The notes beneath the pieces were generated by a model, which did no database searches, was not told where the DNA came from, and saw only the letters and a list, made by a program, of their open reading frames with translations. Of a stretch of DNA of 64,000 bases, positions 32,819-59,462 are shown one piece after another (within the stretch, counting starts at the first letter, position 1; every line of letters begins with the position of its first letter). The translations under genes were made by a program, and so were the position numbers. Location: assembly GCA_029212745.1 (NCBI GenBank), contig JARGOL010000004.1:62001-126000 (forward strand), written 5' to 3'. The stretch comes from Alcanivoracaceae bacterium (GTDB lineage Bacteria; Pseudomonadota; Gammaproteobacteria; Pseudomonadales; Alcanivoracaceae).

Positions 32819-32832
32819 TTCCGTTCTCCCGT

Positions 32833-33513: not shown

Positions 33514-33525
33514 CCAGTAACCACC

Positions 33526-34122
33526 CTAGCCTGCGGCCAGCATGAGCAACGTGGCTGCCGTTCCAGCCACCACCGCGCGCAAGGCGGGCGCCAGTGGCTG
33601 CAGGCCTTTCCCCAGCAGCATGCCTGCCAGCATCAGCAACACGGACGCCGCCATGAATCCAGCACCAAATCCGGCCACCGAACCAATCATCTCTGCACCG
33701 TGTGCCCAGCCATGCGCGGCAAGCACGGCGGCCAAAACGGCGGCCATCCGGCCTCGCAGACTGCCCGGAAAGGCAAGGGCTGCCGCAAACACGACGGCTG
33801 AGGCCGTAATCAGCCATTCCATTGCGCCGGACATCCCCAGGCTCATGCCCGCCACAAAGCCAACCAGCAGGCTGGCGCCTGCGGCGATGAAGCCAAGGCC
33901 CTGTGCTTTCCGGCTGGTGCCAACCAGCAAGGCACCAAACAACATCAGGGCAACCAGGTGATCGAGACCGGTAACGGGGTGCATGAGGCCCGCCATGATG
34001 CCCCCATGCGAATGCGCCAGCTCACCGGTGTGGGCCATGGCCATCGTCGGCATGACGGCAACCAGGACTGATGCTGTGATTGCTGCCCGAAAGCCGGGCA
34101 TGTTGTTGCGGATACTATCCAT
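33526..34122 (-). CDS. ureJ: Urease-cluster HupE/UreJ-family membrane protein, putative nickel transporter
   Basis: The 198-residue protein has an N-terminal leader (about 1-30), then the histidine-rich HTGELAHSHGGIMAGLMHPVTGLDHLVALMLFGALLVG region and about six membrane helices. HPxxGxDH and the later AHGWAHGAEM motif are the hallmarks of HupE/UreJ, thought to bring nickel into the cell for hydrogenase or urease. Its place between ureE and ureF supports a nickel supply role for urease. It is shorter than the other HupE-like protein in the window, which has a large extra periplasmic domain. Confidence 0.92.
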   Translation of the reverse strand: MDSIRNNMPGFRAAITASVLVAVMPTMAMAHTGELAHSHGGIMAGLMHPVTGLDHLVALMLFGALLVGTSRKAQGLGFIAAGASLLVGFVAGMSLGMSGAMEWLITASAVVFAAALAFPGSLRGRMAAVLAAVLAAHGWAHGAEMIGSVAGFGAGFMAASVLLMLAGMLLGKGLQPLAPALRAVVAGTAATLLMLAAG

Positions 34123-34172
34123 GCTGTTCTCCTTTCTCGCCTTTCTCGTCGTTGTTGCTTGCCAGGTTGCGG

Positions 34173-34634
34173 TCAGTGGGCGTGGCCATGTGAATGCCCC
34201 CCTGACTGCAGATAGGCGCCGGCCTCCGGTTCGAAGGGCGCCATCTCTTCGTTCACTTCGATGCCCATCTGGCGCAGCATGTCGTCCAGCACATGGTCAT
34301 GCTGGTAGCGCACAAAATCCGTGGTGATCTGCAATGGCACATGACGGTTACCCAGGTGGTAGGCCGCCTTCGCCAGCATCAGCGGATCGCTGCAGCGCGC
34401 CGTGGAGACCTTCTCGCGGGCGGCGACGATACGCACCCGCTTGCCATCGCGGCTCGCGACGATGTCGCCATCGCGCAGCAGGGTGCCACGCACAAGGAAC
34501 AGACCAGCGTTCTCGCCATTGGTGAGCACCACACGCTGGCGGCTGCGCACGCGCAAATCCATGGGCAGTTCCACGCTCGGCAGCAGCTCACTGCCCGGCA
34601 GGTTATTGCCCACTACATGTACCAGCTGGATCAT
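34173..34634 (-). CDS. ureE: Urease accessory nickel chaperone UreE
   Basis: The 153-residue UreE delivers nickel to the UreD-UreF-UreG assembly complex. The N-terminal peptide-binding half has LRVRSRQRVVLTNGENAGLFLVRGTLLRDGD. The metal-binding half has LMLAKAAYHLGNRHVPLQI with the conserved HLGNRH motif. The C terminus, SGGHSHGHAH, has four histidines that can bind nickel. AGGAGG is found just upstream of the ATG at 34634. A longer reading would overlap ureC and is rejected. Confidence 0.96.
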   Translation of the reverse strand: MIQLVHVVGNNLPGSELLPSVELPMDLRVRSRQRVVLTNGENAGLFLVRGTLLRDGDIVASRDGKRVRIVAAREKVSTARCSDPLMLAKAAYHLGNRHVPLQITTDFVRYQHDHVLDDMLRQMGIEVNEEMAPFEPEAGAYLQSGGHSHGHAH

Positions 34635-34656
34635 CTCCGGCCTCCTAAAACTGCCA

Positions 34657-36360
<1,704 letters not shown>

Positions 36361-36363
36361 GGT

Positions 36364-36684
36364 TCAGTCCCCCTGCCCGTCAAGCGGGCCCATGATGTCT
36401 CCACGGAAGCCATACACGTGGCGCATGCCGGCATAGGCCACCAGCTCCACCGTGCGTGTCTGCCCCGGCTCGATGCGCACCGCCGTGCCGGCAGGCACGT
36501 TGAGACGAAAACCGCGGGTCTTTTCGCGGTCGAACGTCAAGGCAGGATTGGCTTCGAAAAAGTGATAGTGGGAGCCCACCTGGATTGGCCGGTCACCGGT
36601 GTTGGCCACCTCCACCGTGCACGTCTCACGGCCGACATTGATCTCGATGTCACCGTCCATGGGCAGTATTTCACCTGGCGTCAT
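36364..36684 (-). CDS. ureB: Urease subunit beta
   Basis: The 106-residue beta subunit has the family core [39 protein letters not shown] and the end [23 protein letters not shown]. It packs against UreA and UreC in the (alpha-beta-gamma)3 enzyme. I set the start at the ATG at 36684 ([12 protein letters not shown]), the normal family start; a longer reading would overlap ureA. The gap to ureA is 10 bases. Confidence 0.97.
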
Positions 36685-36694
36685 GTGGTCCCCC

Positions 36695-36997
36695 TTACAC
36701 GATCGGTTCATGAACGGTGACCAGCTTGGTCCCGTCCGGGAATGTGGCTTCCACCTGGATTTCGTGAACCATCTCGGGCACGCCATCCATGACCTGGTCG
36801 CGGGTCAGCAAACCGCGGCCTTCATTCATCAGTTCAGCCACCGTCCGGCCATCGCGGGCGCCCTCCATGATGGCGGCACTGATGTAGGCCTTGGCTTCCG
36901 GGTAGTTGAGCTTCAGTCCCCTGGCCAGGCGGCGCTCGGACAACAGTGCGGCGGTAAATACCAGCAACTTGTCCTTTTCCCGTGGGCTCAGTTCCAT
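36695..36997 (-). CDS. ureA: Urease subunit gamma
   Basis: The 100-residue gamma subunit has the full family sequence from [19 protein letters not shown] through [41 protein letters not shown] and the end [11 protein letters not shown]. The ATG at 36997 is the standard family start, preceded by CAGGAGAAACC. It lies 22 bases after ureD in the urease operon. Confidence 0.98.
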
Positions 36998-37019
36998 GTT
37001 GGTTTCTCCTGTTGACGAT

Positions 37020-37874
37020 TCAGGTGGCCCAGATGCGCGGCGCGTGTGCCGGGCGATCAAGCACATGCGGGCGCACCAGCGCCCAGACGCTGGCCATCAG
37101 GGCGCGCACGCGTTCGGCGTTGTGCCCCAGCACACGTACTACCAGCAGACCTTCCAACAGCGTGGTGCCAACCAGCTCCGTGGCACTGCCCGGCACCTGC
37201 TCCTGCACGGCATCCACCAGCGCCGGCTCCACTTTCCAGGCCAGCATCAAACCCTGCACCGGATGATTGCGAAGCCCGGCAGCGGCCGACAGATGCCTCG
37301 CCTCAGTAATGCGCTGGGTTTCCATCAGCAACGGCCGGCCATCCACAAACAGCCGCAGGCGTGACTGCAACTGCCCATCACTGAACAGCTCGTTGATCAC
37401 CGGCCGGCCGAGGCAATTGATCTCCCACGCCACCAGCTGTGCATCCGTATGCAGATGGATATCGGTGCCGATATCCACACGCGCGCCGGGAAAGAAGATG
37501 TTTTCCTGTGGCAGCCACTCCAGGCTGGCACCTGCCTCCACCGTAAGCTGCTGGCGCACCAGGGCGGTGGTGCCGGCGCTGCGGTAGAACTTGGTGGCCC
37601 CCGGCGTGGTCACCAGCGCCCGTGCATCCGGGGCGCAACGGGCCTGCTGGTGCAGGCCGTCGCCCCCCACTACCCCCCCGGGCGGATGCAGGACATACAC
37701 GTGACAGATATCCCCTTCCGGATAGAACGGCCGCTGTATACGCAGCGGGCCAACATGGTTAACGGCTGCCGCCACCGTGCGGGCCTGTGCCGGGCGGTGC
37801 ACAAAACCCAGCGACAGCCGCGCCTGCCACCCGGTGGGCTGTGCTGCCAGCGGAGTGCCCAGCGCCACCGTCAT
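37020..37874 (-). CDS. ureD: Urease accessory protein UreD (UreH)
   Basis: The 284-residue accessory protein forms the base of the nickel-loading complex with UreF and UreG. Recognisable family parts are [43 protein letters not shown] and [20 protein letters not shown]. It opens the urease part of the operon: its ATG overlaps the urtE stop by four bases (ATGA), so urea import and urease maturation genes are translationally coupled. Confidence 0.96.
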
Positions 37875-38572
37875 ACCGTCAGGTACTCCTTGACCAGCGA
37901 CTCGCTCAGTTCCGCCACCGCGCCATCCGCTTTTACCGCCCCACGATCGAGAATGTAGAAGTGATCCGCTGTGCGCCGCACAAACGGCAGCTTCTGCTCC
38001 ACCAGCACCACGGTGACGCCCAGCTCACCGTTGAGCTTCTTGATCACGTCGCCAATGTCGCTGACGATATTCGGCTGGATGCCCTCGGTGGGCTCGTCGA
38101 AGATCAGCAGCTCCGGGTCAATCACCAGGGCCCGGCCGATGGCCAGTTGTTGCTGCTGCCCACCAGACAGGTCACCGCCGCGACGGCCCAGCATTTCTTT
38201 CAGCACCGGGAACATGTCGTAGATGAAGTCGGGAATCTTGCGCGACTTGTCGCGCCGCTGCGGCAAACCAATCTGCAGGTTCTCTTCCACGGTCAGCATG
38301 GGAAAGATCTGCCTTCCCTGCGGCACATAGCCGATGCCCAGGCCGGCGCGTTTTTCCATGGGCAGCTCATGCAGGGCCTGGTCCTTGTATTCGATACGGC
38401 CGCTGCTGATGGGCAGCTGGCCCATGATGCACTGCAGCAGCGTGGTCTTGCCGACACCGTTGCGACCCATGATGCAGGTGCACTTGCCCTTCTCGATGCT
38501 GATGTCCACATCCCAGAGCGTGTGACTCTCACCGTAGAACTGGTTCAGTCCAGCAATGCTCAGCATGGTCAT
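37871..38572 (-). CDS. urtE: Urea ABC transporter ATP-binding protein UrtE
   Basis: The 233-residue ATPase is of the LivF type. It has Walker A GRNGVGKTTLL, the signature LSGGQQQQLAIGRAL, Walker B LLIFDEPTEGIQPNI and the H-loop region. It powers uptake together with UrtD. It starts at 38572 with a four-base overlap with urtD, or six bases further at MLSIAGLNQ where GGGGGA is better placed. It overlaps ureD at its end. Confidence 0.95.
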   Translation of the reverse strand: MTMLSIAGLNQFYGESHTLWDVDISIEKGKCTCIMGRNGVGKTTLLQCIMGQLPISSGRIEYKDQALHELPMEKRAGLGIGYVPQGRQIFPMLTVEENLQIGLPQRRDKSRKIPDFIYDMFPVLKEMLGRRGGDLSGGQQQQLAIGRALVIDPELLIFDEPTEGIQPNIVSDIGDVIKKLNGELGVTVVLVEQKLPFVRRTADHFYILDRGAVKADGAVAELSESLVKEYLTV

Positions 38573-39399
38573 TCCCCCAGGTACACTTGTTTGACGCGGG
38601 CATCGTTCTGCACCTGCTCCATGGAGCCTTCGGCCAGCACCGCGCCCTGATGCAGCACCGTCACCGTGCGGGCAATGGAGCGGACAAAATCCATGTCATG
38701 CTCCACCACCACCACTGAGCGCTCACCGGCCAGGGACGTCAGCAACTCGGCGGTACGATCCATTTCCTGGTGCGTCATGCCCGCCACCGGCTCGTCCACC
38801 AGCAACAGCTTCGGTTGCTGCATCAGCAACATGCCGATCTCCAGCCATTGTTTCTGTCCGTGTGAAAGCTTCGACGCCGGCTCCTGAGCCAGCTCACTGA
38901 GGCCAATGGTTTCCAGCGTGTGGTCGATCCAGTCGCGCTGTTCGGCACTCAGGGACGCGCGCAACAGGGCCAGCACACGCTTGTCCTGGGCCATGGCCAG
39001 CTCCAGGTTCTGGAACACGGTGAGCATCTCGAACACGGTGGGTTTCTGGAACTTGCGGCCAATGCCGGCTTCGGCGATATCCGCCTCGGACATGTTGAGC
39101 AGGTTGATGCTCTGGCCAAACCAGGCCGAGCCACTGTCAGGGCGTGTCTTGCCGGTGATGATGTCCATCATGGTGGACTTACCGGCACCGTTGGGGCCGA
39201 TGATGCAGCGCAGCTCGCCCGCCTCGATGTACAGGTTCAGGTTGTTGATCGCCTTGAAGCCATCAAAGCTCACCGTCAGATCCTCGAGATAGAGAATGGT
39301 CTGGTGGCTCAGGTCCAGGCGCGGTCCGGCATCCGGGATCAGGAAATCGAACACCTGGTCGCGCCGCACGGCATGGCGCAGTGATTCGGTAAAGCTCAT
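38569..39399 (-). CDS. urtD: Urea ABC transporter ATP-binding protein UrtD
   Basis: The 276-residue ATPase is of the LivG type. It has Walker A GPNGAGKSTMMDIITGK, the signature LSHGQKQWLEIGMLLMQ and Walker B LLLVDEPVAGMTHQEM. The N-terminal 45-residue extension before the LTVSFDGFKAINNL core is usual for UrtD. The ATG at 39399 (MSFTESLRHA) overlaps the urtC stop by four bases; a longer reading inside urtC is rejected. Confidence 0.95.
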   Translation of the reverse strand: MSFTESLRHAVRRDQVFDFLIPDAGPRLDLSHQTILYLEDLTVSFDGFKAINNLNLYIEAGELRCIIGPNGAGKSTMMDIITGKTRPDSGSAWFGQSINLLNMSEADIAEAGIGRKFQKPTVFEMLTVFQNLELAMAQDKRVLALLRASLSAEQRDWIDHTLETIGLSELAQEPASKLSHGQKQWLEIGMLLMQQPKLLLVDEPVAGMTHQEMDRTAELLTSLAGERSVVVVEHDMDFVRSIARTVTVLHQGAVLAEGSMEQVQNDARVKQVYLGE

Positions 39400-40484
39400 G
39401 CGCGCGCCCTCCTCATGGCTGCAAGGCCGACGATGCCTTTGGGCAGGTACAGGGTGACCAGCACAAACAACGCACCGAGGGCAAACAACCACACCTCCGG
39501 CAATGCGGCAGTAAACACGGTCTTGCCGTAATTGACCGCCACGGCACCGGCGGCTGCGCCGAACAGCGTCGCGCGTCCGCCCACCGCCACCCAGACGATC
39601 AGCTCGATGGAATGCAATGGCGAGAATTCATTCGGGTTGATGATGCCCACCTGCGGTACATACAGGGCGCCGGCAATGCCAGCGAGCACCGCCGAGAAGG
39701 TAAACAGCCACAACTTGGCATGCTCCACCTTGTAGCCAATGAAACGGGTGCGGCTCTCGGCATCGCGCACGGCCACCGCCAGCAGTCCCAGGCGCGAACG
39801 GACGATGTAGCGACACACCAGGTAGCCCAGCGCCAGGGCAATGGCGGAGGCCAGGAACAGGCCCACACGGGTGGCATCACTCTGCAGGCTGAAGCCGAGC
39901 AGGTCCTTGAAGTCGGTGAGGCCGTTGTTGCCGCCAAACCCCATCTCGTTGCGAAAGAACGCCAGCATCAGGGCATAGGTCAGTGCCTGGGTCATGATCG
40001 ACAGGTAGACCCCGGTGACCCGGGAGCGGAACGCCAGCCAGCCAAACACGAACGCCAGCACGCCAGGCACCAGCGCCACCATGAGCATGGCAAACCAGAA
40101 CTGGTCGAAGCCGTACCAGAACCACGGCAGCGCATCCCAATTCAGGAACACCATGAAGTCCGGCAGGTCAGGGTTGCCATAGACGCCGCGATCGCCGATC
40201 TGGCGCATCAGGTACATGCCCATGCCGTAGCCTCCCAGGGCAAAGAACGCCCCGTGGCCGAGACTGAGAATCCCCAGGTACCCCCAGACCAGGTCGGCGG
40301 CGATGGCCAGCAACGCATAGCACAGGTACTTACCGAGCAGGGTTACCGTGTAGGTGGACATGTGCAGGGCCGAGCTCTCCGGCACCAGCAGGTTGGCACA
40401 GGGCACCACCACGCACAGCACTGCCAGTACCATCAGGAAGATCTTGCCGCCGGTGTCGTCGGCGAAGACGCTTGTACGATTCAT
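39396..40484 (-). CDS. urtC: Urea ABC transporter permease UrtC
   Basis: The 362-residue permease is of the LivM type, with about ten membrane helices and the conserved segments LVWGYLGILSLGHGAFFALGGYGMGMYL and NYGKTVFTAALPEVWLFALGALFVLVTLYLPKGIVGL. It forms the inner-membrane channel with UrtB. GGAGGG precedes the ATG at 40484 with a five-base spacer; a start six codons upstream is possible but lacks a good site. The gap to urtB is one base. Confidence 0.95.
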   Translation of the reverse strand: MNRTSVFADDTGGKIFLMVLAVLCVVVPCANLLVPESSALHMSTYTVTLLGKYLCYALLAIAADLVWGYLGILSLGHGAFFALGGYGMGMYLMRQIGDRGVYGNPDLPDFMVFLNWDALPWFWYGFDQFWFAMLMVALVPGVLAFVFGWLAFRSRVTGVYLSIMTQALTYALMLAFFRNEMGFGGNNGLTDFKDLLGFSLQSDATRVGLFLASAIALALGYLVCRYIVRSRLGLLAVAVRDAESRTRFIGYKVEHAKLWLFTFSAVLAGIAGALYVPQVGIINPNEFSPLHSIELIVWVAVGGRATLFGAAAGAVAVNYGKTVFTAALPEVWLFALGALFVLVTLYLPKGIVGLAAMRRARA

Positions 40485-40485
40485 G

Positions 40486-42108
40486 TCAGCCCTCCGCCGC
40501 ACGGCCGCGCTGCGGGAACAGTCCCTGCGGCCGCTTCTGGATAAACAGGATGATGAACACGAGGATCAGGATCTTAGCCAGCACAGCACCGGCCGACGGC
40601 TCCAGCACCTTGTTCATCACGCCCAGGCTCATACCTGCAAACAAGGTGCCAAGCAGGTTGCCGACGCCGCCAAACACCACCACCATGAACGAATCGATGA
40701 TGTAGGCCTGTCCCAGGTTGGGGCCCACATTGGTGATCAGGCTCAATGCCACCCCGGCGACACCGGCAATGCCCGAGCCGAGGCCAAATGTCAGTGCATC
40801 CACCCATTGGGAACGCACCCCCATGGCGCGGGCCATGTTGCGGTTCTGCGACACGGCACGCACCTGCAGCCCCAGTGGCGTCTTCTTCATCACGAACACC
40901 AGCGCCAGGAACACCATCAGGCAGAACACGATGATGTAGAGGCGGTTCCATGTCAGTGACAGCACCGAGTTCACTTCCAGCAGGCCACTCATCCAGTCAG
41001 GGGTAATCACCGACTTGTTCAGCGGCGAGAAGATGGTGCGCACGGTCTGCTGCAGGATCAGGCTGATACCGAAAGTGGCCAGCAGTGTTTCCAGCGGGTT
41101 GCCGTAGAGGTGGCGTATCACCAGCCGCTCCATGAGGATGCCGGCCAGCGCCGACACCAGGAACGCCGCCGGGATAGCGATGATGATGGAGATGCCGATC
41201 ATGTCCGGCATCAGCTGCTGGATCACATAGGTGGTATAGGCGCCGAGCATGATCAGCTCGCCATGGGCCATGTTGATCACGCCCATGACACCGAAGGTAA
41301 TGGCCAGGCCAATGCCCGCCAGTACCAGCACCGAACCGAAGCTGAGACCGAAGTACAGGGTCTCGATGTTCTCGTACACCGCCACCCGTGCCTCGATGGC
41401 GTCAATGGCATCCTGGGCCTGGCGCGCCAGCAGCGCGCTGTCGGTGCCTTGCATGAACTGTTGCAGGGTATTCAGTGCCACCGGCTCAAGGCTGGTGGAC
41501 AGGGTCTCGATGGCAGCCCCGGCCAGCGCGACATCGCCGGTGCGCAGGTCGCCCACCGCCAGCACCACAGCCATGGCCTCGCGCACCTCGGTATCCTGCT
41601 CGTCCGAGTAATATTCGCGGATGATGGCCACCGAATCGCTGTCCACCTTTTCGATGATCTGGTTGACCGCCGCCAGTCGCATGGCAGGGTCATCGGCGCG
41701 CAACTGCAGTTGCGCAATGGTGCGTCGCAGGATGCGGCGCACGGAATTATTGATGCGAACCCGTTTCAGGTCGCCTTTGCTGTCTGCCAGGGTGACATCG
41801 CCGGAATCCAGGTCGGCGATACGATACTGGTCGTTGTCAGCATCGGTGACCGAGATCAGCTGCCCGCTTTCAGACAGGTACAGGTCACCGCCAAGCATGG
41901 TTTGCAGGACCGGCAACAGGGCCGTGGCGCCGGGTCGATCCGGCAAGGACGTGACCAGCTCACGCTTGTCCGTGTATGAGCCATCGGCCAGAACGGCCAG
42001 ATCCTGCTCATCCATCAGTGCAGCGCGGAGAGGACTACAGAGAAGCAGCAAGATGATTTGGACCAGCAGCAGCTGGATTCCGATACACCCTTTGCGCGGC
42101 AGAAGCAT
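40486..42108 (-). CDS. urtB: Urea ABC transporter permease UrtB
   Basis: The 540-residue LivH-type permease has a signal-like N terminus, a roughly 190-residue extracytoplasmic region (HEAT-like: DDPAMRLAAVNQIIEKVDSDSVAIIREYY, TEVREAMAVVLAVGD) and a C-terminal membrane domain from about 250 onward. GLAITFGVMGVINMAHGELIMLGAYTTYVIQ is the diagnostic permease motif. The long N-terminal extension is usual in proteobacterial UrtB. CGGGAG precedes the ATG. A small hairpin separates it from urtA. Confidence 0.95.
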   Translation of the reverse strand: MLLPRKGCIGIQLLLVQIILLLLCSPLRAALMDEQDLAVLADGSYTDKRELVTSLPDRPGATALLPVLQTMLGGDLYLSESGQLISVTDADNDQYRIADLDSGDVTLADSKGDLKRVRINNSVRRILRRTIAQLQLRADDPAMRLAAVNQIIEKVDSDSVAIIREYYSDEQDTEVREAMAVVLAVGDLRTGDVALAGAAIETLSTSLEPVALNTLQQFMQGTDSALLARQAQDAIDAIEARVAVYENIETLYFGLSFGSVLVLAGIGLAITFGVMGVINMAHGELIMLGAYTTYVIQQLMPDMIGISIIIAIPAAFLVSALAGILMERLVIRHLYGNPLETLLATFGISLILQQTVRTIFSPLNKSVITPDWMSGLLEVNSVLSLTWNRLYIIVFCLMVFLALVFVMKKTPLGLQVRAVSQNRNMARAMGVRSQWVDALTFGLGSGIAGVAGVALSLITNVGPNLGQAYIIDSFMVVVFGGVGNLLGTLFAGMSLGVMNKVLEPSAGAVLAKILILVFIILFIQKRPQGLFPQRGRAAEG

Positions 42109-42196: not shown

Positions 42197-43477
42197 TCAG
42201 TAGTTCTGGCCGCTGCACTTCTTGGTCTTGGTGTTGTAGTTGCCGCAGCCGAGCTTGTCGGTCCAGTCAGCAACGATGTCCTTGGAACCGGGCAGGTGAT
42301 CGGACCAGGCATCACCCGGTACCAGGTCGTCGGTCTCCCAGACCACGTCGAACTGGCCGTTGTCCTGGATTTCGCCAATCAGCACCGGCTTGGTGATGTG
42401 GTGGTTGGCCAGCATCTTGGCAGTGCCACCGGTGAGGTTCGGCACTTCCACGCCAATGATGGCTTTCTGTACCGCTTCCGGATCGGTGGTACCGGCCTTC
42501 TCGACCGCCTTCACCCACATGTTGAAGCCGATGTAATGGGCTTCCATCGGATCGTTGGAGACACGCTCCTTGGAGCCGATGAACTTCTGCCAGTCCTTGA
42601 TGAATTTCTTGTTGGCCTTGCTGTCCACACTCATGAAGTAGTTCCAGGCGGCCAGGTGACCCACCAGCGGGCCAGTGTCGATACCGGACAGCTCTTCTTC
42701 ACCCACGGAGAACGCCACCACCGGGATGTCCTCGGCGGACAGGCCCTGGTTGCCCAGCTCCTTGTAGAACGGCACGTTGGCATCACCGTTGATGGTGGAA
42801 ACCACAGCGGTCTTCTTGCCGGCACTGCCGAATTTCTTGATGTCAGAGACAATGGACTGCCAGTCAGAGTGACCGAACGGCGTGTAGTTGATCATGATGT
42901 CCGCGTCAGCAACGCCCTTGGCCTTGAGGTAGGCTTCCAGGATCTTGTTGGTGGTACGCGGGTAGACATAGTCCGTGCCGGCCAGCACCCAACGCTCAAC
43001 ACCCACATCGTTCATCAGGTAATCCACGGCCGGAATAGCCTGCTGGTTCGGCGCGGCACCGGTGTAGAAGACGTTCTTGGAGGATTCCTCACCCTCGTAC
43101 TGCACCGGGTAGAACAGGATGTTGTTCAGTTCCTCGAACACCGGCAGCACGGACTTGCGTGATACCGAGGTCCAGCAGCCAAACACGGCGGCAACCTTGT
43201 CTTTCTCGATCAGCTCGCGGGCTTTCTCTGCGAACAGCGGCCAGTTGGAGGCCGGGTCCACCACCACGGGCTCGAGTTTCTTGCCCAGCAGGCCACCCTT
43301 CTTGTTCTGCTCTTCGATGAGCATCAGCATGGTGTCCTTGAGGGTGGTTTCACTGATGGCCATGGTGCCGGACAGTGAGTGCAGCACGCCTACCTTGATC
43401 GAATCGGCGGCGAACGTGATGCTGGAGGCCAGCAGCGCGGCCGGGATGGCCAGCGACTTCAGAATCGACTTTTTCAT
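42197..43477 (-). CDS. urtA: Urea ABC transporter substrate-binding protein UrtA
   Basis: The 426-residue periplasmic protein captures urea for UrtBCDE. A signal peptide (about 1-23, MKKSILKSLAIPAALLASS then ITFA) precedes the mature start ADSIKVGVLHSLSGTMAISE, which is the hallmark of UrtA. Further motifs are VFGCWTSVSRKSVLPVFEELN, YPVQYEGEESSKNVFYTGAAPNQQAIPAVDYL and FNMWVKAVEKAGTTDPEAV. The start at 43477 gives the signal peptide directly; a longer reading adds 19 implausible residues. It follows the porin gene on the same strand. Confidence 0.97.
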   Translation of the reverse strand: MKKSILKSLAIPAALLASSITFAADSIKVGVLHSLSGTMAISETTLKDTMLMLIEEQNKKGGLLGKKLEPVVVDPASNWPLFAEKARELIEKDKVAAVFGCWTSVSRKSVLPVFEELNNILFYPVQYEGEESSKNVFYTGAAPNQQAIPAVDYLMNDVGVERWVLAGTDYVYPRTTNKILEAYLKAKGVADADIMINYTPFGHSDWQSIVSDIKKFGSAGKKTAVVSTINGDANVPFYKELGNQGLSAEDIPVVAFSVGEEELSGIDTGPLVGHLAAWNYFMSVDSKANKKFIKDWQKFIGSKERVSNDPMEAHYIGFNMWVKAVEKAGTTDPEAVQKAIIGVEVPNLTGGTAKMLANHHITKPVLIGEIQDNGQFDVVWETDDLVPGDAWSDHLPGSKDIVADWTDKLGCGNYNTKTKKCSGQNY

Positions 43478-43548: not shown

Positions 43549-44643
43549 TCAGAAGGTGACCAGGGCCTCCAGTGCATAGGAATCGGCACTTGCCTCTACC
43601 TGGCCATCGACCGGATCGAGGTACTCGATGTCATCGGTGCGGTACTCGGCCACGATCAGCAGGTTGTCGGTGAGGGCATAGCTCGGCGCCACCGTGATGC
43701 CGCTGACAGCCTCGAACTCGATCCCGTCCTTGGTTTCCAGGGTCCAGTCGTGATAGCGCACGGTGATACCGGCCTTGCCGAAGGCATAGTTGGCCATCAG
43801 CAGGTAACCGCTGGCTTCGTCATCCTTGGCGGTGGCATACACCGGGTTGTCCTCGGACTTGTTGTATTCCGCCGCCAGCAGCAGATCGCCGATGGCGAAG
43901 CTGGTCCAGGCGTTGATCAGCACGATGTCCTCATCCAGGGCTTCGTTCTCGTCCACGGAGTAGAAGAACTTGGCGGTCCAGGCGTCGGTGGGCATCACGG
44001 CAATCATGGTTTCGATGGCCGGCTTCTTGCTGTCGCGGAACTCGCCTTCCAGGTCGCCGAGGTCATTGACCACGGATACGGCGGCGGCAAACATGTCGGT
44101 GCCGTAGAGGGCCGACATACCCTGCTGGTAACCGCCGTAGAAGTAACCGGCATACCCGGCACCGGAGTACTGGAACAGCCCGGTGGGATCTTCCGTCTCC
44201 CAGCCGGCATAGCTGAGGAAACGGCCCGCCTTGACGCTGAAGTTGTCGCTGACGGCGTAGTTCAGGTAGGCCTGCTCGATGTCCGTCTCTTCACCGATGG
44301 GCACTTCCACTTCCACATCGTCGCCGCTGGGCTGTGCGGTGCCGAAACCGGTGACGGTACGGCCATCGTCCTGGTGCTCCAGGTCGACCGTGGCGGAGAG
44401 CTTGTCATCGAAGCTGTACATGAAGTTCAGCTCGAACTGGTCGAGGCCGGAAGAGGTCTCGCTCGACTTGCTGTCCACCGCCAGCGCGGCCGGGCTGTCG
44501 ATCTCGGACTCCACATAGGTTGACGACATGTCGATGAAGCCAGACAGGCTGAGCTTTTCGGTCAGCTCGATTTCAGCCTGGGCCATGGATGAGGCGGCAA
44601 TCAGTGCAACCGCCAGGGACAGCTTGTTTCGGTGAGCTTTCAT
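43549..44643 (-). CDS. Outer-membrane beta-barrel porin of the urea locus
   Basis: The 364-residue protein has a signal peptide (about 1-22, MAQA cleavage) and then alternating beta-strand sequence with many Gly, Tyr and Asp residues, ending in a terminal ALEALVTF with the C-terminal phenylalanine required for barrel assembly. Segments such as AGRFLSYAGWETEDPTGLFQYSGAGYAGYFYGGYQQG suggest a small-solute porin. Its place at the head of the urt genes suggests it admits urea or short amides through the outer membrane; that is context-based. The ATG at 44643 gives the signal peptide; longer readings run into the promoter region. Confidence 0.87.
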   Translation of the reverse strand: MKAHRNKLSLAVALIAASSMAQAEIELTEKLSLSGFIDMSSTYVESEIDSPAALAVDSKSSETSSGLDQFELNFMYSFDDKLSATVDLEHQDDGRTVTGFGTAQPSGDDVEVEVPIGEETDIEQAYLNYAVSDNFSVKAGRFLSYAGWETEDPTGLFQYSGAGYAGYFYGGYQQGMSALYGTDMFAAAVSVVNDLGDLEGEFRDSKKPAIETMIAVMPTDAWTAKFFYSVDENEALDEDIVLINAWTSFAIGDLLLAAEYNKSEDNPVYATAKDDEASGYLLMANYAFGKAGITVRYHDWTLETKDGIEFEAVSGITVAPSYALTDNLLIVAEYRTDDIEYLDPVDGQVEASADSYALEALVTF

Positions 44644-44942
44644 GATCAGGTACCCCCTTGGTAACCGTTGGCAAAACACGTTGTTGCTTGGGACGTTGCT
44701 AGGATTTCCGCCAGAGACCGGACCCGACTGTCGCGGTGTCACTGCCACTTTCTGTCCTTGCTGCCGGACCGGCCTCAAAGCGGAAAACCGTTGACGGGTG
44801 CCATCATTACGGTGGCAGGGGGTCACCACCATTCGGTAATCAGCCATTTCGTATACGTCATATGACGTATGGGGTTGGCCGCGAGGAGTGCGCATCATGG
44901 CGCCGGGCTGCACCGGGCCCGGATATTGCAAGATGGACGTCC
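44644..44942. promoter_or_regulatory. Divergent control region, porin-urt-ure operon and sensor operon
   Basis: This 299-base noncoding region holds promoters for the porin (leftward) and the sensor kinase (rightward). It contains a perfect 18-bp palindrome at 44853-44870 and three CGTTG copies at 44666, 44679 and 44694 close to the porin start, 13 and 15 bases apart. I found no good sigma-54 site with correct spacing. Confidence 0.6.
44853..44870. promoter_or_regulatory. Perfect 18-bp palindrome, candidate response-regulator operator
   Basis: ATACGTCAT is followed directly by its reverse complement ATGACGTAT. It lies 73 bases upstream of the sensor kinase start and about 210 bases upstream of the porin start. 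The adjacent operon encodes a LuxR/NarL-type response regulator, a class that binds short inverted repeats as a dimer, so autoregulation is the simplest reading. Confidence 0.6.
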
Positions 44943-47900
44943 ATGGACAGACAGTTCCCCACAGAGCACCCCATCGACGATGCCCATCGTCAATACAATC
45001 AATGGGTTGCCAATGAGACGCTGGAGGATTTTGCGCTCCGCTTTACGGCCAAGCATGCCCGTCGCTGGTCGCTCAAGCGCATTGCCAATACCGCCCTGGG
45101 CATCGTCTCGTTCCTGGCGCTGGAAGCCATCGGCGGTGCCATTACCCTGAGCTACGGCTTTACCAATGCGCTCTGGGCCATCATCACCGTGTCTGCCATC
45201 ATCTTCCTGAGCGGAATACCCGTGTGCTATCACGCCTCACGCACCGGCGTGGATATCGACCTGCTCACCCGTGGCGCCGGCTTCGGCTATATCGGCTCGA
45301 CGGTCTCGTCGCTGGTGTATGCGTCCTTTACGTTCATCTTTTTCGCCCTGGAAGCGGCGATCATGTCCAGCGCCCTGCAGATGCTGTTCGGCTGGCCGCA
45401 GTTCGTGGCCCATATGCTCTCCGCCCTGGTGGTGATCCCGCTGGTCACCCACGGCATCACCCGCATTTCGTTCTTCCAGCTGATCACCCAGCCGGTATGG
45501 GCGCTGCTGCAGTTCATTCCGCTGGTACTGGTGGTGTGGGCACACATGGACACGGTGCCGCACTGGACCGGCTTTACCGGCTCCGCCCAGGAAGGGCCGG
45601 GCTTTGACCTGTACCTGTTCGGCGCCGCGGCGGCGGTGATCTTCCCGCTGATTGCACAGAATGGCGAACAGGTGGATTACCTGCGCTTCCTGCCGCGCGA
45701 CCGGGAGAACACACCGGCCTGGTGGGCGGCGCTGGTCCTGTCCGGGCCGGGCTGGGTGCTGGTGGGCATGCTCAAGCTGCTGGCCGGCTCGTTTCTCGCT
45801 GTGCTGGCGCTGGAATACGGCACCGACCCGAGCGTGGCGGACGATCCCACCCACATGTACCTGATCGTGTTCGAGTACTTCCTCGGCAACAGCCATGCGG
45901 CCATCATCATTGCTGCGGCATTCGTGATCATTTCCCAGCTCAAGATCAACGTCACCAATGCCTATGCCGGCTCCATCGCCTGGTCCAACTTCTTCTCGCG
46001 GCTCACCAATAACCACCCCGGGCGCATCGTCTGGGTGTTCTTCAACGTCTCCATCGCGTTCCTGCTCATGGAGGTGGGCCTGTACAAGGCGTTCGAGGAA
46101 ATCCTGATCACCTTTTCGGCACTGGTGCTGTCCTGGTTCGGAGCGGTGACAGCAGATCTCGCCATCAACCTGCCCCTGGGCCTGCGCCCGAAGAAGATCG
46201 ACTTCAAGCGTGGCAAGCTCTACGACATCAACCCGGTGGGCTTCTTCTCCATGTTGCTGGCCTCGGTGCTGGGCATCGCTTCGGAGCTGGGTCTGTTCGG
46301 CCCCACCGCCGAGGCACTGGCGCCGTTCCTGGCCTTCTTCCTGCCCTTCATCACCGCACCGCTGCTGGCCTGGTACACCGGCGGGCGCTACTACCTGGTG
46401 GACGAACCCACCCTGGAAGGCCGCCTGGTGGTGACCCAGGGCAGCGATGCCGACGACAACGCCCGCTGCGAGTGCAAGGTGTGCCTGGGCACCTACGACA
46501 AGGAAGACATGCTGTTCTGCCCCTACTACGGCGGCGGCATCTGTTCACTGTGCTGTTCACTGGAATCCCTGTGCCAGGATGCCTGCCGCCCCGGCGCCGA
46601 CATCAAGGACCAGACCGGCCTGTTCCTGGCCAAAGTGCTGCCGCGCTGGCTGGTGGGCCGCGTGCAGTCCAACGTGGGTCACTTCCTGTTTATTTTTTCG
46701 GTGATCGGTGTGCTGATTGCCGGCTTGCTGAGCATCTCTGCCTATACCCTGGGCATCAACGCACCGGAGCTGGCCGAAGCGGCAGACACGGTGTTCTTCC
46801 AGGTGTTCTTCCTGTTCCTGATCGTCGCCGGGGTGCTGGTGTGGCTCTATGTGCTGGCCGACAACACCCGCAAGAAAGCCCTGGTGGAGCTGCAGCACCA
46901 GACAGACGCACTGCAAAAGGAAGTCACCCGTCACCACCAGACCGCCACCCAGCTGGCCGAGGCCAAGGAACAGGCGGACCAGGCCAACATCTACAAGACC
47001 CGGTACCTCTCCGGAGTCAGTCACGAGCTGCGCACGCCGCTGAACACCATCTTCGGCTACGCCCAGATACTGCAGGGCAACAACGAGCTCAATGACAAGA
47101 CGCGCGACATCGCCGAGGTCATTTCACGCAGCTCCGAGCACCTCACCGATGTGATCGAGGGCCTGCTGGAAATTTCCAAGATCGAGGCCAAGCGGCTGGA
47201 ATACCTGCACAACGAGACGGTGAACATCCACGCCCTGGTGGAACAGATCTGCAAGATGTTCGAGCTGCAGGCGCGCAAGAAGCATCTCTCCTTCGAGCAT
47301 GTGGGCCTGCAGAACCTGCCCAAGCACATTCGCGGGGATGGCAAGCGCATCCGCCAGGTGCTGATCAACCTGCTCTCCAATGCCATCAAGTTCACCCCCG
47401 AGGGCAAGGTCCGCCTTAGCATCAGCTACCGTAACCAGGTGGCGCGCTTTGTGGTGGAGGACACCGGCATCGGTATCGACCCGGCGGATGAGCACAAGAT
47501 CTTTGCGCCGTTCGAGCGCATCCGCAACGCGCACACGGAAACCATTCCCGGCACCGGCCTGGGACTGGCCCTGAGCAAACTGATCACGGAACTGATGGGC
47601 GGCGACCTGTCGTTCCAGAGCACACCGTCGGTGGGCACCCGCATGACGCTGACGCTGATGCTGACTGCCGTGTCGGTGCCCGACAGTGCCCAGGAGCGCC
47701 CGTTACCGAAGCTGGTCACGGGTTACCTGGGCCAGCGCAAGATCATCCTCGCGGTGGACGACGAGCTTGATCACCGGCGCCTGCTGATGGACCTGCTCAC
47801 GCCTCTGGGCTTCACCGTCATGGAAGCCGCCAATGCCGAGGCCGCCGAAGAGATCGCCCGGGAATGCCCGGTGGACCTGTTCATCCTCGATATCCGCATG

Positions 47901-48335
47901 CCGGATGTGGATGGCTGGCAACTGGCCGCCCGGCTGCGCGAGACACACCCGGACGTGCCCATCATGATGGCCTCGGGCAATGCCATCGAGATGCAGGAAG
48001 AGCAGATGCGCTCGGTCCTCTACGACGCCTATGTCACCAAGCCGGTGCAGCTGGACCAGATGCTGGAGAAGCTCGGCAGCCTGCTGGAGATCGAGTGGCT
48101 GCACCTGGGCGACACGCCGCTGACCGCACCCGGCGGCGGCGGCACCGTGCAGGCACCCGATAACGATGTCATGGAACAACTGCGCTGGCATGCGCAGACC
48201 GGCAATTTCAACGAGATACAGGCCATCCTCGTGCAGCTTGATGCACGCCATGCGGCCTTTGCGGAAAAGGTGAAACAGTTTTGCAGCAGCTTCCAGTTCT
48301 CCGAACTCACCCACTTCCTGGACCAGTACAAATGA
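44943..48335 (+). CDS. NCS1-permease-like sensor hybrid histidine kinase
   Basis: This 1130-residue protein joins a transporter to a kinase. Residues about 45-480 form a roughly 12-helix NCS1 (cytosine/purine/allantoin permease)-like domain, with LEAIGGAITLSYGFTNALWA and NVTNAYAGSIAWSNFFSRLT. A cysteine-rich module follows (cysteines 509, 511, 514, 526, 534, 537, 538, 544, 548). Two more helices lie near 578-600 and 617-638, then a coiled coil, HisKA (histidine 694 in SHELRTP), HATPase (NLLSNAIKFTPEG, DTGIGIDP, GTGLGLALSKL), a receiver with Asp983 and a C-terminal tail. It resembles CbrA-type transporter-kinases in concept only. The start MDRQFPTEHP is chosen for its position. It is coupled to the response regulator by an ATGA overlap. 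Confidence 0.88.
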   Translation: MDRQFPTEHPIDDAHRQYNQWVANETLEDFALRFTAKHARRWSLKRIANTALGIVSFLALEAIGGAITLSYGFTNALWAIITVSAIIFLSGIPVCYHASRTGVDIDLLTRGAGFGYIGSTVSSLVYASFTFIFFALEAAIMSSALQMLFGWPQFVAHMLSALVVIPLVTHGITRISFFQLITQPVWALLQFIPLVLVVWAHMDTVPHWTGFTGSAQEGPGFDLYLFGAAAAVIFPLIAQNGEQVDYLRFLPRDRENTPAWWAALVLSGPGWVLVGMLKLLAGSFLAVLALEYGTDPSVADDPTHMYLIVFEYFLGNSHAAIIIAAAFVIISQLKINVTNAYAGSIAWSNFFSRLTNNHPGRIVWVFFNVSIAFLLMEVGLYKAFEEILITFSALVLSWFGAVTADLAINLPLGLRPKKIDFKRGKLYDINPVGFFSMLLASVLGIASELGLFGPTAEALAPFLAFFLPFITAPLLAWYTGGRYYLVDEPTLEGRLVVTQGSDADDNARCECKVCLGTYDKEDMLFCPYYGGGICSLCCSLESLCQDACRPGADIKDQTGLFLAKVLPRWLVGRVQSNVGHFLFIFSVIGVLIAGLLSISAYTLGINAPELAEAADTVFFQVFFLFLIVAGVLVWLYVLADNTRKKALVELQHQTDALQKEVTRHHQTATQLAEAKEQADQANIYKTRYLSGVSHELRTPLNTIFGYAQILQGNNELNDKTRDIAEVISRSSEHLTDVIEGLLEISKIEAKRLEYLHNETVNIHALVEQICKMFELQARKKHLSFEHVGLQNLPKHIRGDGKRIRQVLINLLSNAIKFTPEGKVRLSISYRNQVARFVVEDTGIGIDPADEHKIFAPFERIRNAHTETIPGTGLGLALSKLITELMGGDLSFQSTPSVGTRMTLTLMLTAVSVPDSAQERPLPKLVTGYLGQRKIILAVDDELDHRRLLMDLLTPLGFTVMEAANAEAAEEIARECPVDLFILDIRMPDVDGWQLAARLRETHPDVPIMMASGNAIEMQEEQMRSVLYDAYVTKPVQLDQMLEKLGSLLEIEWLHLGDTPLTAPGGGGTVQAPDNDVMEQLRWHAQTGNFNEIQAILVQLDARHAAFAEKVKQFCSSFQFSELTHFLDQYK

Positions 48336-49207
48336 GCAGCCGCGAACCCGTCATCCTGGTGGTAGACGACTCCCCGGACTCGCTGGGCATGATCAACACG
48401 GCCCTGGACGAGGCCGGCTACACCGTGCTGATGTCACTGAACGGCGAGCAGGCGCTCACCATCACCGAACAGATCACCCCGGATGTCATCCTCATGGATG
48501 CCCTGATGCCGCAGATGGACGGCTTCGAGTGCTGCCAGCGCATGCGCGAAAAGCTGCCCTTCACCCCGGTGATCTTCATGACCGGGCTTACCGACAGCGA
48601 GAACATCGTCAAGGCGTTCGAGTGTGGCAGCAGCGACTATGTCAGCAAACCCATCCACCCGGCCGAGCTGATTGCCCGCATCCGCACGCACCTGCTGCAC
48701 GCCAACATGCTCGGCGATGCCTACGAAGCCCTGGACAAGGCGCAGCAGTTCCTTTTCGCCCTGACCCGCGACGGCCACCTGCAGTGGGCCACGCCGGGCG
48801 CACGCCAGGTGCTGGACATGCATGAGGACACCGACGGCCTGATCACCACCATCCTTGATCACCACACCCGTGAGGACAGCACGCCGCTGGAAGCCACGTT
48901 TGGCAAGCGCAGCCTGGCGATCAACTTCTTCAAGGTGGACCCGGCGCAGCACATCCTGTTCAAGCTGGAACAGACCGCCGCCGTGTTCGATGCCGGCAAG
49001 CTGGAAGAAGCGCTGGATGTGACCAAGCGCGAGGCAGAAGTGCTGCTGTGGGTGGCCCAGGGCAAGAGCAACAAGCAGATCGCCGACATCCTCACCCTCA
49101 GCCCGCGCACGGTGAACAAGCACCTGGAGCAGCTGTTTCCCAAGATCGGCGTGGATAATCGGGCAGCGGCCACGTCCGTGGCCATCCGTACCCTGCTGAC
49201 GCGTTAA
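48332..49207 (+). CDS. LuxR-type response regulator
   Basis: The 291-residue protein has an N-terminal receiver (about 5-122; phospho-acceptor Asp56 in DVILMDALMPQMDGF, Lys in YVSKP), a middle region of about 90 residues resembling a PAS-like or linker fold (FLFALTRDGHLQWATPGARQVLDM), and a C-terminal LuxR helix-turn-helix (about 226-286, LDVTKREAEVLLWVAQGKSNKQIADILTLSPRTVNKHLEQLFPKIGV). Its ATG overlaps the kinase stop by four bases. It is the natural output of that kinase and a likely regulator of the porin-urea operon. Confidence 0.94.
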   Translation: MSSREPVILVVDDSPDSLGMINTALDEAGYTVLMSLNGEQALTITEQITPDVILMDALMPQMDGFECCQRMREKLPFTPVIFMTGLTDSENIVKAFECGSSDYVSKPIHPAELIARIRTHLLHANMLGDAYEALDKAQQFLFALTRDGHLQWATPGARQVLDMHEDTDGLITTILDHHTREDSTPLEATFGKRSLAINFFKVDPAQHILFKLEQTAAVFDAGKLEEALDVTKREAEVLLWVAQGKSNKQIADILTLSPRTVNKHLEQLFPKIGVDNRAAATSVAIRTLLTR

Positions 49208-57009: not shown

Positions 57010-58284
57010 CTATTCCGAGGAGTCCTCGTTACTCCGCTTTACCTCAGAAAGAAAGGTATAACCGTAGACCTCCTGATAGCCAGATAGAAATTCCTCAGAC
57101 CTTCTAAAATCTCTAAAGATTGGCCAATCATGGTACGCATATTCGTTAAAATAATCGCCGCTTTCCCCTAGCCGAAGCATTAGTTCTTTGCTTGCTTCAT
57201 AATCTTCGCGTAGCACCCTTTCTGCCATTCTGAAGTCAAGGCAAGCCGCACTCCAATCAGTTGAATCCAAGATCTCCATCGCCCGCTCATCACTTCCAGA
57301 AAACTTATAGGCAATGGCGGCGTTAATTGTGAAAAGCATCCGACTTGATTCAGCTGAGATCTTAGGGAGAGAGAGTGCAAAATCAGAAAAAACCATAGCC
57401 CAACGCCAATTACCTAACCTTAAGCATTCAAAAATAATTTCATTCAAGTAATCATCAGACTGCTGAATCTCAAAATCAATAAGCTTTCGCCATAGAACAT
57501 GGGTCAGCTTTACTGCCACCTCCGACATCAAGTCGAAGATCGAAAATATATAGTCGTCCTCAAAGAAAAGCTTATCACCGGGGCAAATACCTAAAATCCC
57601 TCTGACACGGTGCCTTGTGCATATATCTATATATTGCTGGCTAACCTCTCCATTGCAATGCATAAAAAGGTTACGCCTTTGAGTTGCCTCAACAAAATCT
57701 GGCCATTTCTCAAAATTTGTTAATGAAACCCCAAATCGCTTCTCCAAATCCTGGAATTGCTCTACATAGCTCTTTCTACGAAAACCCTCAATTTCATTTG
57801 CAAGAACCATGTTCTTCAGGTCATCGATGCTAGATACATTCAGAACGTCAGATAAATCTATAGTCTTGTTAATGCCGCTGTATAAATCAGGCCTTTTTTT
57901 GTAGAGATTTAAAAGAAGATCTCCAGTAAAGGTATCGAAATCACTGAATAAGTTTAAGAACAAGGCCTTTTCTAATGTTTCTGGGACATTAGCATTCTCA
58001 ACACGCTCCAATCCCAAAAGGGATTCGGAAATAAGCTTTATCCCTTGAGCTTGAGTCTGATTATCGTTTTCCTCAGAAGCTAATTTCTGCCCTTCCTCAA
58101 GCCTCCTTTCAAGATCTTCGAGTTTCTTGTTATGAATACTCACCGCATCGTCAATAAAAGACGATGCCTCCTCTGCATCACGTAGACAATGCAAAAACCG
58201 GGACAAAACCTTTGCTATTGGGTTCTGATCGCTTTCCCCTTCACCAGCAGAGACTTCAACCTCTTTTTCTTCGTTTTCTGACAT
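57010..58284 (-). CDS. HEPN-motif protein of unknown function
   Basis: The 424-residue protein is mostly helical. An N-terminal acidic region and coiled coil (about 40-85) lead to a helical domain with the RX4H motif R204-NLFM-H209 within TQRRNLFMHCNGE, the pattern of HEPN domains that often act as RNases in defence and toxin-antitoxin systems; the Tyr seen two residues after His in HepT-type toxins is absent. The C-terminal half has helical repeat-like segments (WRWAMVFSDFALSLPK). It lies 237 bases from the nucleotidyltransferase gene on the same strand. I do not recognise the full-length family. AGAGA precedes the chosen ATG at 58284. Confidence 0.7.
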   Translation of the reverse strand: MSENEEKEVEVSAGEGESDQNPIAKVLSRFLHCLRDAEEASSFIDDAVSIHNKKLEDLERRLEEGQKLASEENDNQTQAQGIKLISESLLGLERVENANVPETLEKALFLNLFSDFDTFTGDLLLNLYKKRPDLYSGINKTIDLSDVLNVSSIDDLKNMVLANEIEGFRRKSYVEQFQDLEKRFGVSLTNFEKWPDFVEATQRRNLFMHCNGEVSQQYIDICTRHRVRGILGICPGDKLFFEDDYIFSIFDLMSEVAVKLTHVLWRKLIDFEIQQSDDYLNEIIFECLRLGNWRWAMVFSDFALSLPKISAESSRMLFTINAAIAYKFSGSDERAMEILDSTDWSAACLDFRMAERVLREDYEASKELMLRLGESGDYFNEYAYHDWPIFRDFRRSEEFLSGYQEVYGYTFLSEVKRSNEDSSE

Positions 58285-58497
58285 GCAAAAATCTCTATAA
58301 ACAATCATCTGTAAGATTAATTCATTAATCTATCAGGCGCCTAATATTGATATTACTCAAGCCAAACAGAAATTAACTCTTTTAAATAAATTAGCCCAGG
58401 CATACGGGTCAGGACTCACAATTCAAAGAAGACGGCGTAAAATGTCAGGCCCGAACCTGCCTTTCTATAGCCGCATAAAATGCTGGATCCGGAATCT

Positions 58498-58534
58498 ACT
58501 AGTGCGATAACCCAGCATGCCTCAGTTATCTAGT
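58498..58534. terminator. Possible hairpin at the end of the nucleotidyltransferase gene
   Basis: ACTA...GATAAC (58498-58511) can pair with GTTATC-TAGT (58525-58534), with a four-base bulge and a 13-base loop, overlapping the stop codon. There is no strong U-run, so it is a weak candidate for ending the HNH operon. The rest of the 237-base gap is AT-rich and without a gene. Confidence 0.3.
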
Positions 58535-58821
58535 GGGTAAATTTTCTCGCTGCTCTGTAGCTTAATGGCATCTATATCAGCAGCCTCCTGAAATGTTAAA
58601 AGCATTAGATCTAAAGGCAGACTGAGAGAGTCGCAATCTATTTTGCTCCGCAAATCGTCAGCTTGAATGTCACTTTCGCAGATAATCATCAAATCTATAT
58701 CAGCAGCGGAGTCTTTATTCCTGGCTACTGAGCCAAAAAGATGCCACTCACTCCCTTCCGCTGTCTTCCCTAGCGAGAAAGCAAGCTCTCGAATATTTGA
58801 GATCACGGTTTCTCGAATCAC
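58522..58821 (-). CDS. Minimal nucleotidyltransferase (MNT)-domain protein
   Basis: The 99-residue protein is a small polymerase-beta-fold nucleotidyltransferase. The motif LFGSVARNKDSAADIDLMII gives Gly30-Ser31 and the metal-binding Asp41 and Asp43; a third acidic residue, Asp71 in LPLDLMLL, completes the catalytic triad. Members called MntA transfer AMP to HEPN toxins. It starts with a GTG that overlaps the stop of the previous gene by four bases (GTGA), so it is translated as part of the HNH operon. The triad looks intact. Confidence 0.88.
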   Translation of the reverse strand: MIRETVISNIRELAFSLGKTAEGSEWHLFGSVARNKDSAADIDLMIICESDIQADDLRSKIDCDSLSLPLDLMLLTFQEAADIDAIKLQSSEKIYPLDN

Positions 58822-59462
58822 CTCGCAAGGCGCCCCATTAAAGCCTTAAAGGTAAGCGCCTCAGCACCCATTGATTTCGCAGCATCTTCTGCTTGATTTG
58901 TAATTGAACCATAGCTCGAGGATTTTACTACGATATCAAAATTTCCGAATGAATCTCTTGCATGACGAACATCCTCAGCACTCATGTTATATGCATCGAT
59001 AACCGCGACTTTTAACGTTTTCCCGTTATACTGGGTTACTTCAAAAACTCTGTCATATACGTATGAAATTCTTGAAACATTAGAATGCTGTCTTATCGCA
59101 TTTATAAAGAAACCCATGTTCTTGTCACGAAACGAGCTCGCATCACCAGTAGATGCGGCCCGAGCCACATCTCCAAGCCTTCCAAACGCTGCAGACGCAT
59201 CATGAACGCAATCAATGGCCGACCCACTCCATAATGTCTTAGACGGAACACTTATAACAAGGCTTGGTTGTTTCTTGCCTTCAAAAAGCGGCGAAACATC
59301 CGTACGCTTCACCACACCAGAAACCCCAATTACTGCCACCAAAAAAACATACCCATCATTACTGGTGACATTCAGGAAGCCCTCACCCGTTATTTCGACG
59401 CTGCTTATTCCATGGCTTGATTCCAACTTCTCAGCAGCCCACCGCAAAACATCCCTACTCAT
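58818..59462 (-). CDS. Unknown middle protein of the HNH-MNT operon
   Basis: I do not recognise this 214-residue protein. It has two parts of similar character: a first region with GEGFLNVTSNDGYVFLVAVIG and a second with VFEVTQYNGKTLKVAVIDAY (about 138-158), each a beta hairpin with central hydrophobic strands. The C-terminal segment, FDIVVKSSSYGSITNQAEDAA then KSMGAEALTFKALMGRLAR, has a pattern compatible with a nuclease-like alpha/beta core; this is speculation. Its ATG overlaps the HNH stop and its stop overlaps the nucleotidyltransferase start, each by four bases. Tight coupling suggests the three proteins act together. Confidence 0.75.
   Translation of the reverse strand: MSRDVLRWAAEKLESSHGISSVEITGEGFLNVTSNDGYVFLVAVIGVSGVVKRTDVSPLFEGKKQPSLVISVPSKTLWSGSAIDCVHDASAAFGRLGDVARAASTGDASSFRDKNMGFFINAIRQHSNVSRISYVYDRVFEVTQYNGKTLKVAVIDAYNMSAEDVRHARDSFGNFDIVVKSSSYGSITNQAEDAAKSMGAEALTFKALMGRLAR

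Follow-up and report, generated by a model that had tools for sequence, protein, structure and literature searches.

A histidine kinase with an NCS1-fold permease head and an eight-cysteine module: a candidate sensor for bacterial urea and amide scavenging

Several described bacterial kinases carry a transporter as their sensory head. CbrA (an SLC5-STAC histidine kinase "transceptor" of Pseudomonas), CrbS/MxtR and RpuS are transporter-headed kinases controlling solute use (PMC13022988, PMC7096432, PMC5715377, PMC9100948), and Ks-Amt5 is an ammonium transporter fused to a histidine kinase (PMC5764959). The kinase considered here is encoded by a 64,000-nucleotide stretch of contig JARGOL010000004.1 from an Alcanivoracaceae bacterium (positions 62,001 to 126,000; the whole stretch is referred to as the window, and coordinates are those of the window), in which it occupies the open frame 44943-48335 (+ strand; 1130 residues). 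Like the kinases of the CbrA group, it combines a LeuT-fold transporter domain and a histidine kinase, with a cytoplasmic module linking the two, but its head is NCS1-like (CodB/Mhp1) rather than SLC5/PutP, the position of STAC is taken by an eight-cysteine module and two membrane helices (PMC13022988), and the system has a fused receiver and a LuxR-type output regulator. As in Ks-Amt5, a kinase appears to have gained its sensory part from a protein for nitrogen-nutrient uptake, although Ks-Amt5 is a trimer of the Amt fold, has no cysteine module and has ammonium as its ligand, which is bound but not transported. The results described below suggest that the protein is probably a transceptor-like sensor of urea and short-chain amides, rather than of purines, and that it activates a regulon consisting of porin and urt genes with either ure or fmd genes.

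The genes that this kinase would control are of kinds already known. The fmdCABDEF genes of Methylophilus methylotrophus encode a porin, a formamidase and an amide/urea ABC transporter, and are inducible by formamide and urea; the regulon proposed here contains the same kinds of genes, but no kinase is named in that study (PMC10781810). Amide-responsive control of aliphatic amidase genes, the role envisaged here, is exerted in the AmiC-AmiR system by a binding protein-like sensor (AmiC) and an antiterminator (AmiR), whereas the window encodes a membrane kinase and a predicted DNA-binding regulator with a palindromic candidate site; a Pseudomonas urt-fmd-ami locus has been noted to lack amiC and amiR (PMC13209695). 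For Ectopseudomonas, a figure legend includes a generically labelled hybrid kinase and a LuxR-type regulator in the set of urea genes (PMC13296017). No functional description of an NCS1-headed kinase or of its regulon was found in the open-access literature, most subscription papers lying outside the search. The parts of the kinase are as follows.

44943-48335, + strand: hybrid histidine kinase with an NCS1-type head and a cysteine module (NCS1-Cys kinase), 1130 aa (open frame; Pfam HisKA, HATPase_c and receiver)
44943-46440, + strand: NCS1-fold permease domain, residues 1-499 (AlphaFold2 model, Foldseek, hhalign)
46467-46586, + strand: cysteine module, residues 509-548, with eight invariant cysteines (conservation; predicted beta-hairpin fold)
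46671-46862, + strand: two more predicted transmembrane (TM) helices (about 577-603 and 608-640), then a coiled coil (DSSP of the model)
46995-47189, + strand: HisKA (DHp) domain with phosphoacceptor H694 (Pfam, residues 685-749)
47334-47663, + strand: HATPase_c domain (Pfam, residues 798-907)
47745-48074, + strand: receiver domain with D983 (Pfam, residues 935-1044)

The permease domain is invisible to direct sequence searches: residues 1-500 gave no Pfam, NCBIfam or PDB match, and PF02133 (cytosine/purine/allantoin permeases; TC 2.A.39) was not matched at E ≤ 1 by any of 36 family members, which fall below the Pfam gathering cut-off. Stand-alone proteins of about 500 residues from other genomes are 27% identical to the kinase over its residues 24-487, and two of the four tested (L149 and L154) match PF02133. 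Comparison by hhalign with six stand-alone NCS1 relatives gave a probability of 99.9% (E 4e-37, 430 columns). An AlphaFold2 model of residues 1-690 was built from an alignment of 36 relatives (predicted local distance difference test score, pLDDT, 81), and its five best PDB matches in Foldseek were all CodB or Mhp1, above Nramp and SSS structures (CodB, 7qoa, E 5.5e-9, target TM-score 0.76; Mhp1, E 7.1e-9, target TM-score 0.65). Because structure, profile-profile comparison and stand-alone relatives agree while Pfam misses the domain, the domain is concluded to have an NCS1 fold while lying outside the curated NCS1 family. The domain thus has the fold of the nucleobase and hydantoin carriers CodB and Mhp1, but is only 14-19% identical to them, lies below the PF02133 cut-off, has a leucine in place of the TM6 aromatic residue and is fused to a kinase. 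It cannot be attributed to chance, because an identity of about 53% is maintained over the permease part across many of the 241 loci found. An initial annotation of the window had proposed an NCS1-type permease head, to be checked by structure prediction, and a combination distinct from the SSS (PutP-like) head of CbrA; both proposals are borne out, as the SSS and STAC Pfam domains were not found in NCS1-Cys kinases and NCS1 structures outrank all SSS structures in Foldseek.

The ligand site was compared with those of CodB and Mhp1, as that annotation had recommended, using an alignment with CodB anchored on two motifs, FG..GS in TM3 and D..RF after TM6. The ligand site is lined by W108 and F204 in CodB and by Q121 in Mhp1. 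W108 (TM3) corresponds to F133 of the kinase, which is Phe in 32 of the 36 members, and F204 (TM6) to L236, which is Leu in 35 and Met in one, so that the pair of nucleobase-stacking aromatics on TM3 and TM6 typical of NCS1 carriers is broken by replacement of the second; Mhp1 Q121 corresponds to E137, which is invariant. The invariant polar residues in the membrane helices are E61, E137, Q239, E242, Q243, D245 and K334; E61 and E242 are never present in the six stand-alone relatives, and Q239 and Q243 are not consistently so. A pocket lacking the second aromatic and carrying additional polar groups would suit urea or small amides better than nucleobases. K334 was also considered as a replacement of the Na2 site (cf. 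K196 of CbrA), but this was dropped, as the alignment of TM8 to CodB is ambiguous, with a three-residue gap introduced by MAFFT.

In the AlphaFold2 model, the chain runs from the last permease helix into the cysteine module, then through a predicted pair of membrane helices into an extended coiled coil. The nine cysteines between residues 509 and 548, pointed out at the outset, do form a conserved module, but only eight of them (C511, C514, C526, C534, C537, C538, C544 and C548, spaced CxxC-x11-C-x7-CxxCC-x5-C-x3-C) are invariant in 36 diverse relatives, C509 being variable. Beta-hairpins and a short helix are predicted, with a pLDDT of about 90 over the cysteine part. The best Foldseek matches, RING and PHD domains, are not significant (E 0.28 or worse), and an assignment to the RING/PHD/FYVE-type domains, which have a cross-brace fold with two zinc ions, was not adopted. 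A profile search of 274 genomes found the module in the NCS1-Cys family only. It is most likely a structural zinc site. Further towards the C-terminus, Pfam recognises HisKA, HATPase_c and receiver domains in the full-length protein and nothing else, in agreement with the kinase and receiver initially described; the phosphoacceptor H694 is invariant among representative kinases and, together with HATPase_c and a receiver bearing D983, defines a hybrid sensor histidine kinase. Two relatives (L164 and L165) are shorter, at 885-894 aa; they lack the C-terminal receiver and the LuxR partner, and lie near fmdA and a different response regulator. In L195, a kinase of the same type, the permease domain is missing and the head is another cysteine-rich one (CCNLDVCCTNNC).

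The kinase gene is divergent from a porin-urtABC...-ure cluster on the opposite strand, as originally described and as confirmed by the open reading frame (ORF) map, PF07642 and TIGR03407/TIGR01792. Its surroundings in the window comprise the following.

48332-49207, + strand: response regulator, 291 aa, with a receiver (PF00072) and a LuxR/GerE helix-turn-helix (HTH; PF00196); its ATG overlaps the kinase stop (ATGA)
44853-44870, unstranded: 18-bp perfect palindrome ATACGTCATATGACGTAT in the kinase-porin gap, candidate operator of the response regulator
43549-44643, - strand: BBP2/OmpL-type outer-membrane porin (PF07642, E 1.2e-20), starting 210 bp from the palindrome
42197-43477, - strand: UrtA, urea-type substrate-binding protein (TIGR03407)
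38569-42108, - strand: urtBC and the next Urt ATPase gene (order conserved beside related kinases)
32165-37874, - strand: urease structural and accessory genes ureD, ureA-C, UreJ-type, ureF and ureG (UreC TIGR01792; HupE/UreJ; ORF map; orthologues in other loci)

The receiver and GerE HTH place the 291-aa protein among the NarL/LuxR-type response regulators; about 110 residues between these two domains have no Pfam match and possibly form a degenerate PAS-like domain. The window UrtA scores 575 bits against TIGR03407 (cut-off 492.75), a model that is also passed by the amide-type UrtA found beside FmdA (537 bits).

The NCS1-Cys kinases form a widespread family, present in many proteobacteria, and are not a one-off. 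The genome collection yielded at least 241 relatives, a sample of 398 genomes from across the phylum included 67 with a match at E ≤ 0.001 (strong matches being full-length and the weakest stand-alone permeases), and the sensor head is matched by 530 plasmid records, 342 of them from Klebsiella. Neighbouring genes were counted in 45 divergent clusters with less than 75% identity to each other. The LuxR-type regulator adjoins the kinase in 40 of these, a divergent urtA lies no more than 3 kb from the kinase in 32, formamidase or amidase genes (FmdA, AmiE or AmiF) are present in 30 and urease in five; UrtA is encoded in the fetched stretch for five of the 10 clusters without a listed hydrolase. 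Matches to NCBI models bear out the FmdA, aliphatic amidase, UreC and UrtA assignments in the loci. None of the loci examined showed recognisable purine, hydantoin or allantoin genes. UrtA itself is of two types, one resembling that of the window and found beside urease or porin, the other about 40% identical to it and found beside formamidase or amidase. Urea and amide contexts change places at least five times on the kinase tree, and this interchange implies that the kinases of both contexts probably share a ligand class. The annotated plasmid loci have the order formamidase-urtEDCBA / kinase-regulator. One of them, on the IncF conjugative plasmid ps01 of Klebsiella pneumoniae (L189, 7898-17357), has amiF-urtEDCBA divergent from an NCS1-Cys kinase, a gene order that resembles the "UTS" cluster of lineage CG307, discussed for urinary-tract fitness (PMC13060141). 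A low-GC genome (G579) has two diverged kinase copies (L185, 9023-12841, and L186, 6849-10520) without an adjacent regulator, the palindrome or urea/amide genes.

The strongest new evidence is that the kinase-regulator pair and the urea/amide genes have a cis-element in common. A dyad search of the gaps upstream of the 45 kinases yielded a single signal, ATACGTCA-NN-TGACGTAT, the core dyad occurring in 23 loci against zero to one in shuffles, and the motif (≤ 3 mismatches) lies within 450 bp upstream of 24 of the 45 kinases, for an expectation of 0.055. The window copy lies 72 bp upstream of the kinase and 210 bp upstream of the porin; no other site with ≤ 3 mismatches exists in the 64 kb, and a pattern scan of the genome gave no second site with ≤ 2. 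The fetched loci, 3.4 Mb in total, contain 51 distinct sites with ≤ 2 mismatches. All of these precede urtA, kinase or porin (40) or fmdA (11), some of them at urtA genes separated from the kinase by 6-10 kb (L188 and L222). The palindrome is absent from four clusters in which no regulator adjoins the kinase (L164, L165, L185 and L186). Among 57 related genomes, the motif was found in 18 of 24 with the kinase versus eight of 33 without it (Fisher p 1.9e-4), the latter rate (24%) being the background rate of the reversed pattern. Sigma-54 (-24/-12) sites were only sporadic in the divergent gaps. The shared palindrome thus provides cis-regulatory support for the control of the neighbouring porin-urt genes that was initially suggested.

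These observations can be combined in a model. The divergent permease domain would bind urea, or formamide and acetamide in sister systems, on its reaching or crossing the inner membrane, and the resulting movement would reach the DHp/CA kinase by way of the cytoplasmic cysteine module and the additional pair of membrane helices. Phosphate would then pass through the fused receiver to the co-encoded LuxR-type regulator, which would bind the 18-bp palindrome between the divergent genes. There it would turn on, rather than repress, its own operon and porin-urtABCDE-(urease), the target in other systems being urt-fmdA-amiE. Ammonium repression, as reported for fmd genes (PMC10781810), would require an additional input.

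The signal proposed at the outset was urea, a purine or allantoin. Urea fits, and its scope widens to short-chain amides, given the partner genes (FmdA, AmiE/AmiF, urease and two UrtA types), whereas purines and allantoin find no support, the residue at the nucleobase-stacking position of TM6 being aliphatic (Leu or Met) in 36 of 36 members. Urea is an end product of purine catabolism, and the closest folds are those of CodB (cytosine) and Mhp1 (hydantoin), so the sensor could be imagined to detect a nucleobase, hydantoin or allantoin, like classical NCS1 carriers, and to control urea uptake as the end of purine breakdown. This seems very improbable in view of that same TM6 position and of the partner genes, which are those for formamidase, aliphatic amidase, urease and Urt/amide ABC transporters, none for purines or allantoin having been recognised among the loci examined. 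It would be equally surprising if the permease domain sensed loaded UrtA instead of free ligand, much as certain kinases respond to sugar-binding proteins. Of the conserved neighbours UrtA is the nearest, but the invariant residues lie within the membrane core, and the kinase and fmdA occur without a UrtA orthologue in at least one complete genome (G699; best identity 27%). That genome, which also has an amidase, encodes a kinase-less NCS1-Cys protein (L196, 1093-2943, + strand; G699:C6:941592-943442), divergent from the kinase, with all eight cysteines kept and a stop about 100 bp before the fmdA frame. The simplest reading, at which this arrangement hints, is that a duplicate of the sensor head has assumed the import of formamide and replaced the ABC transporter, in which case the protein is possibly a new formamide transporter.

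Urease requires nickel, and eight invariant cysteines stand between the permease and the kinase; the true input might therefore be a metal, redox or nitrogen-status signal perceived at the cysteine module, with the permease domain as an anchor or vestige. This is unlikely, if less so than the two preceding alternatives, given that conservation is higher over the permease part than over the kinase, with invariant polar residues in the membrane helices of the former, that the module is retained in the kinase-less copy upstream of formamidase, and that amide clusters without urease have the same module. Several observations also weigh against sensing of urea and amides by the permease domain, coupled to the palindrome. 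Five of the 45 clusters have no recognisable urea/amide gene in the fetched stretch, and about half, including most urease-only clusters, have no palindrome (≤ 3 mismatches) near the kinase. One genome (G018) has a palindrome 37 bp before the fmdA frame (L261, 2887-2904) without a detectable kinase, which would make it either an orphan operator or the trace of a lost kinase. The motif was derived from the same loci as those used for counting, the fmdA and distant urtA sites serving as an independent check, and the alignment of TM8 with CodB is ambiguous.

Elsewhere in the window, a stretch at 57010-60160 (- strand) with a low G+C content at third codon positions (about 0.4, versus about 0.8 around it) contains four ORFs, one resembling a small nucleotidyltransferase, and has the look of recently inserted DNA, perhaps a defence island.

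The way in which bacteria sense external urea and simple amides for the induction of high-affinity uptake is poorly known, and the sensor, regulator and DNA site described here are candidates for the corresponding switch. With this family, NCS1 joins the few transporter folds known in kinase fusions, with a different coupling module. The regulation of the urt-formamidase cluster of Klebsiella plasmids is of practical interest, given the "UTS" gene order and the discussion of that cluster for the urinary-tract fitness of CG307 (PMC13060141). The chances seem slightly better than even that these proteins are transceptor kinases of a class not previously described, with an NCS1-fold head that has shifted its specificity from aromatic nucleobases towards urea and short-chain amides, a new eight-cysteine coupling module and a dedicated palindromic operator, and that they serve as general inducer sensors for bacterial urea/amide scavenging regulons, including the mobile copies on Klebsiella plasmids.

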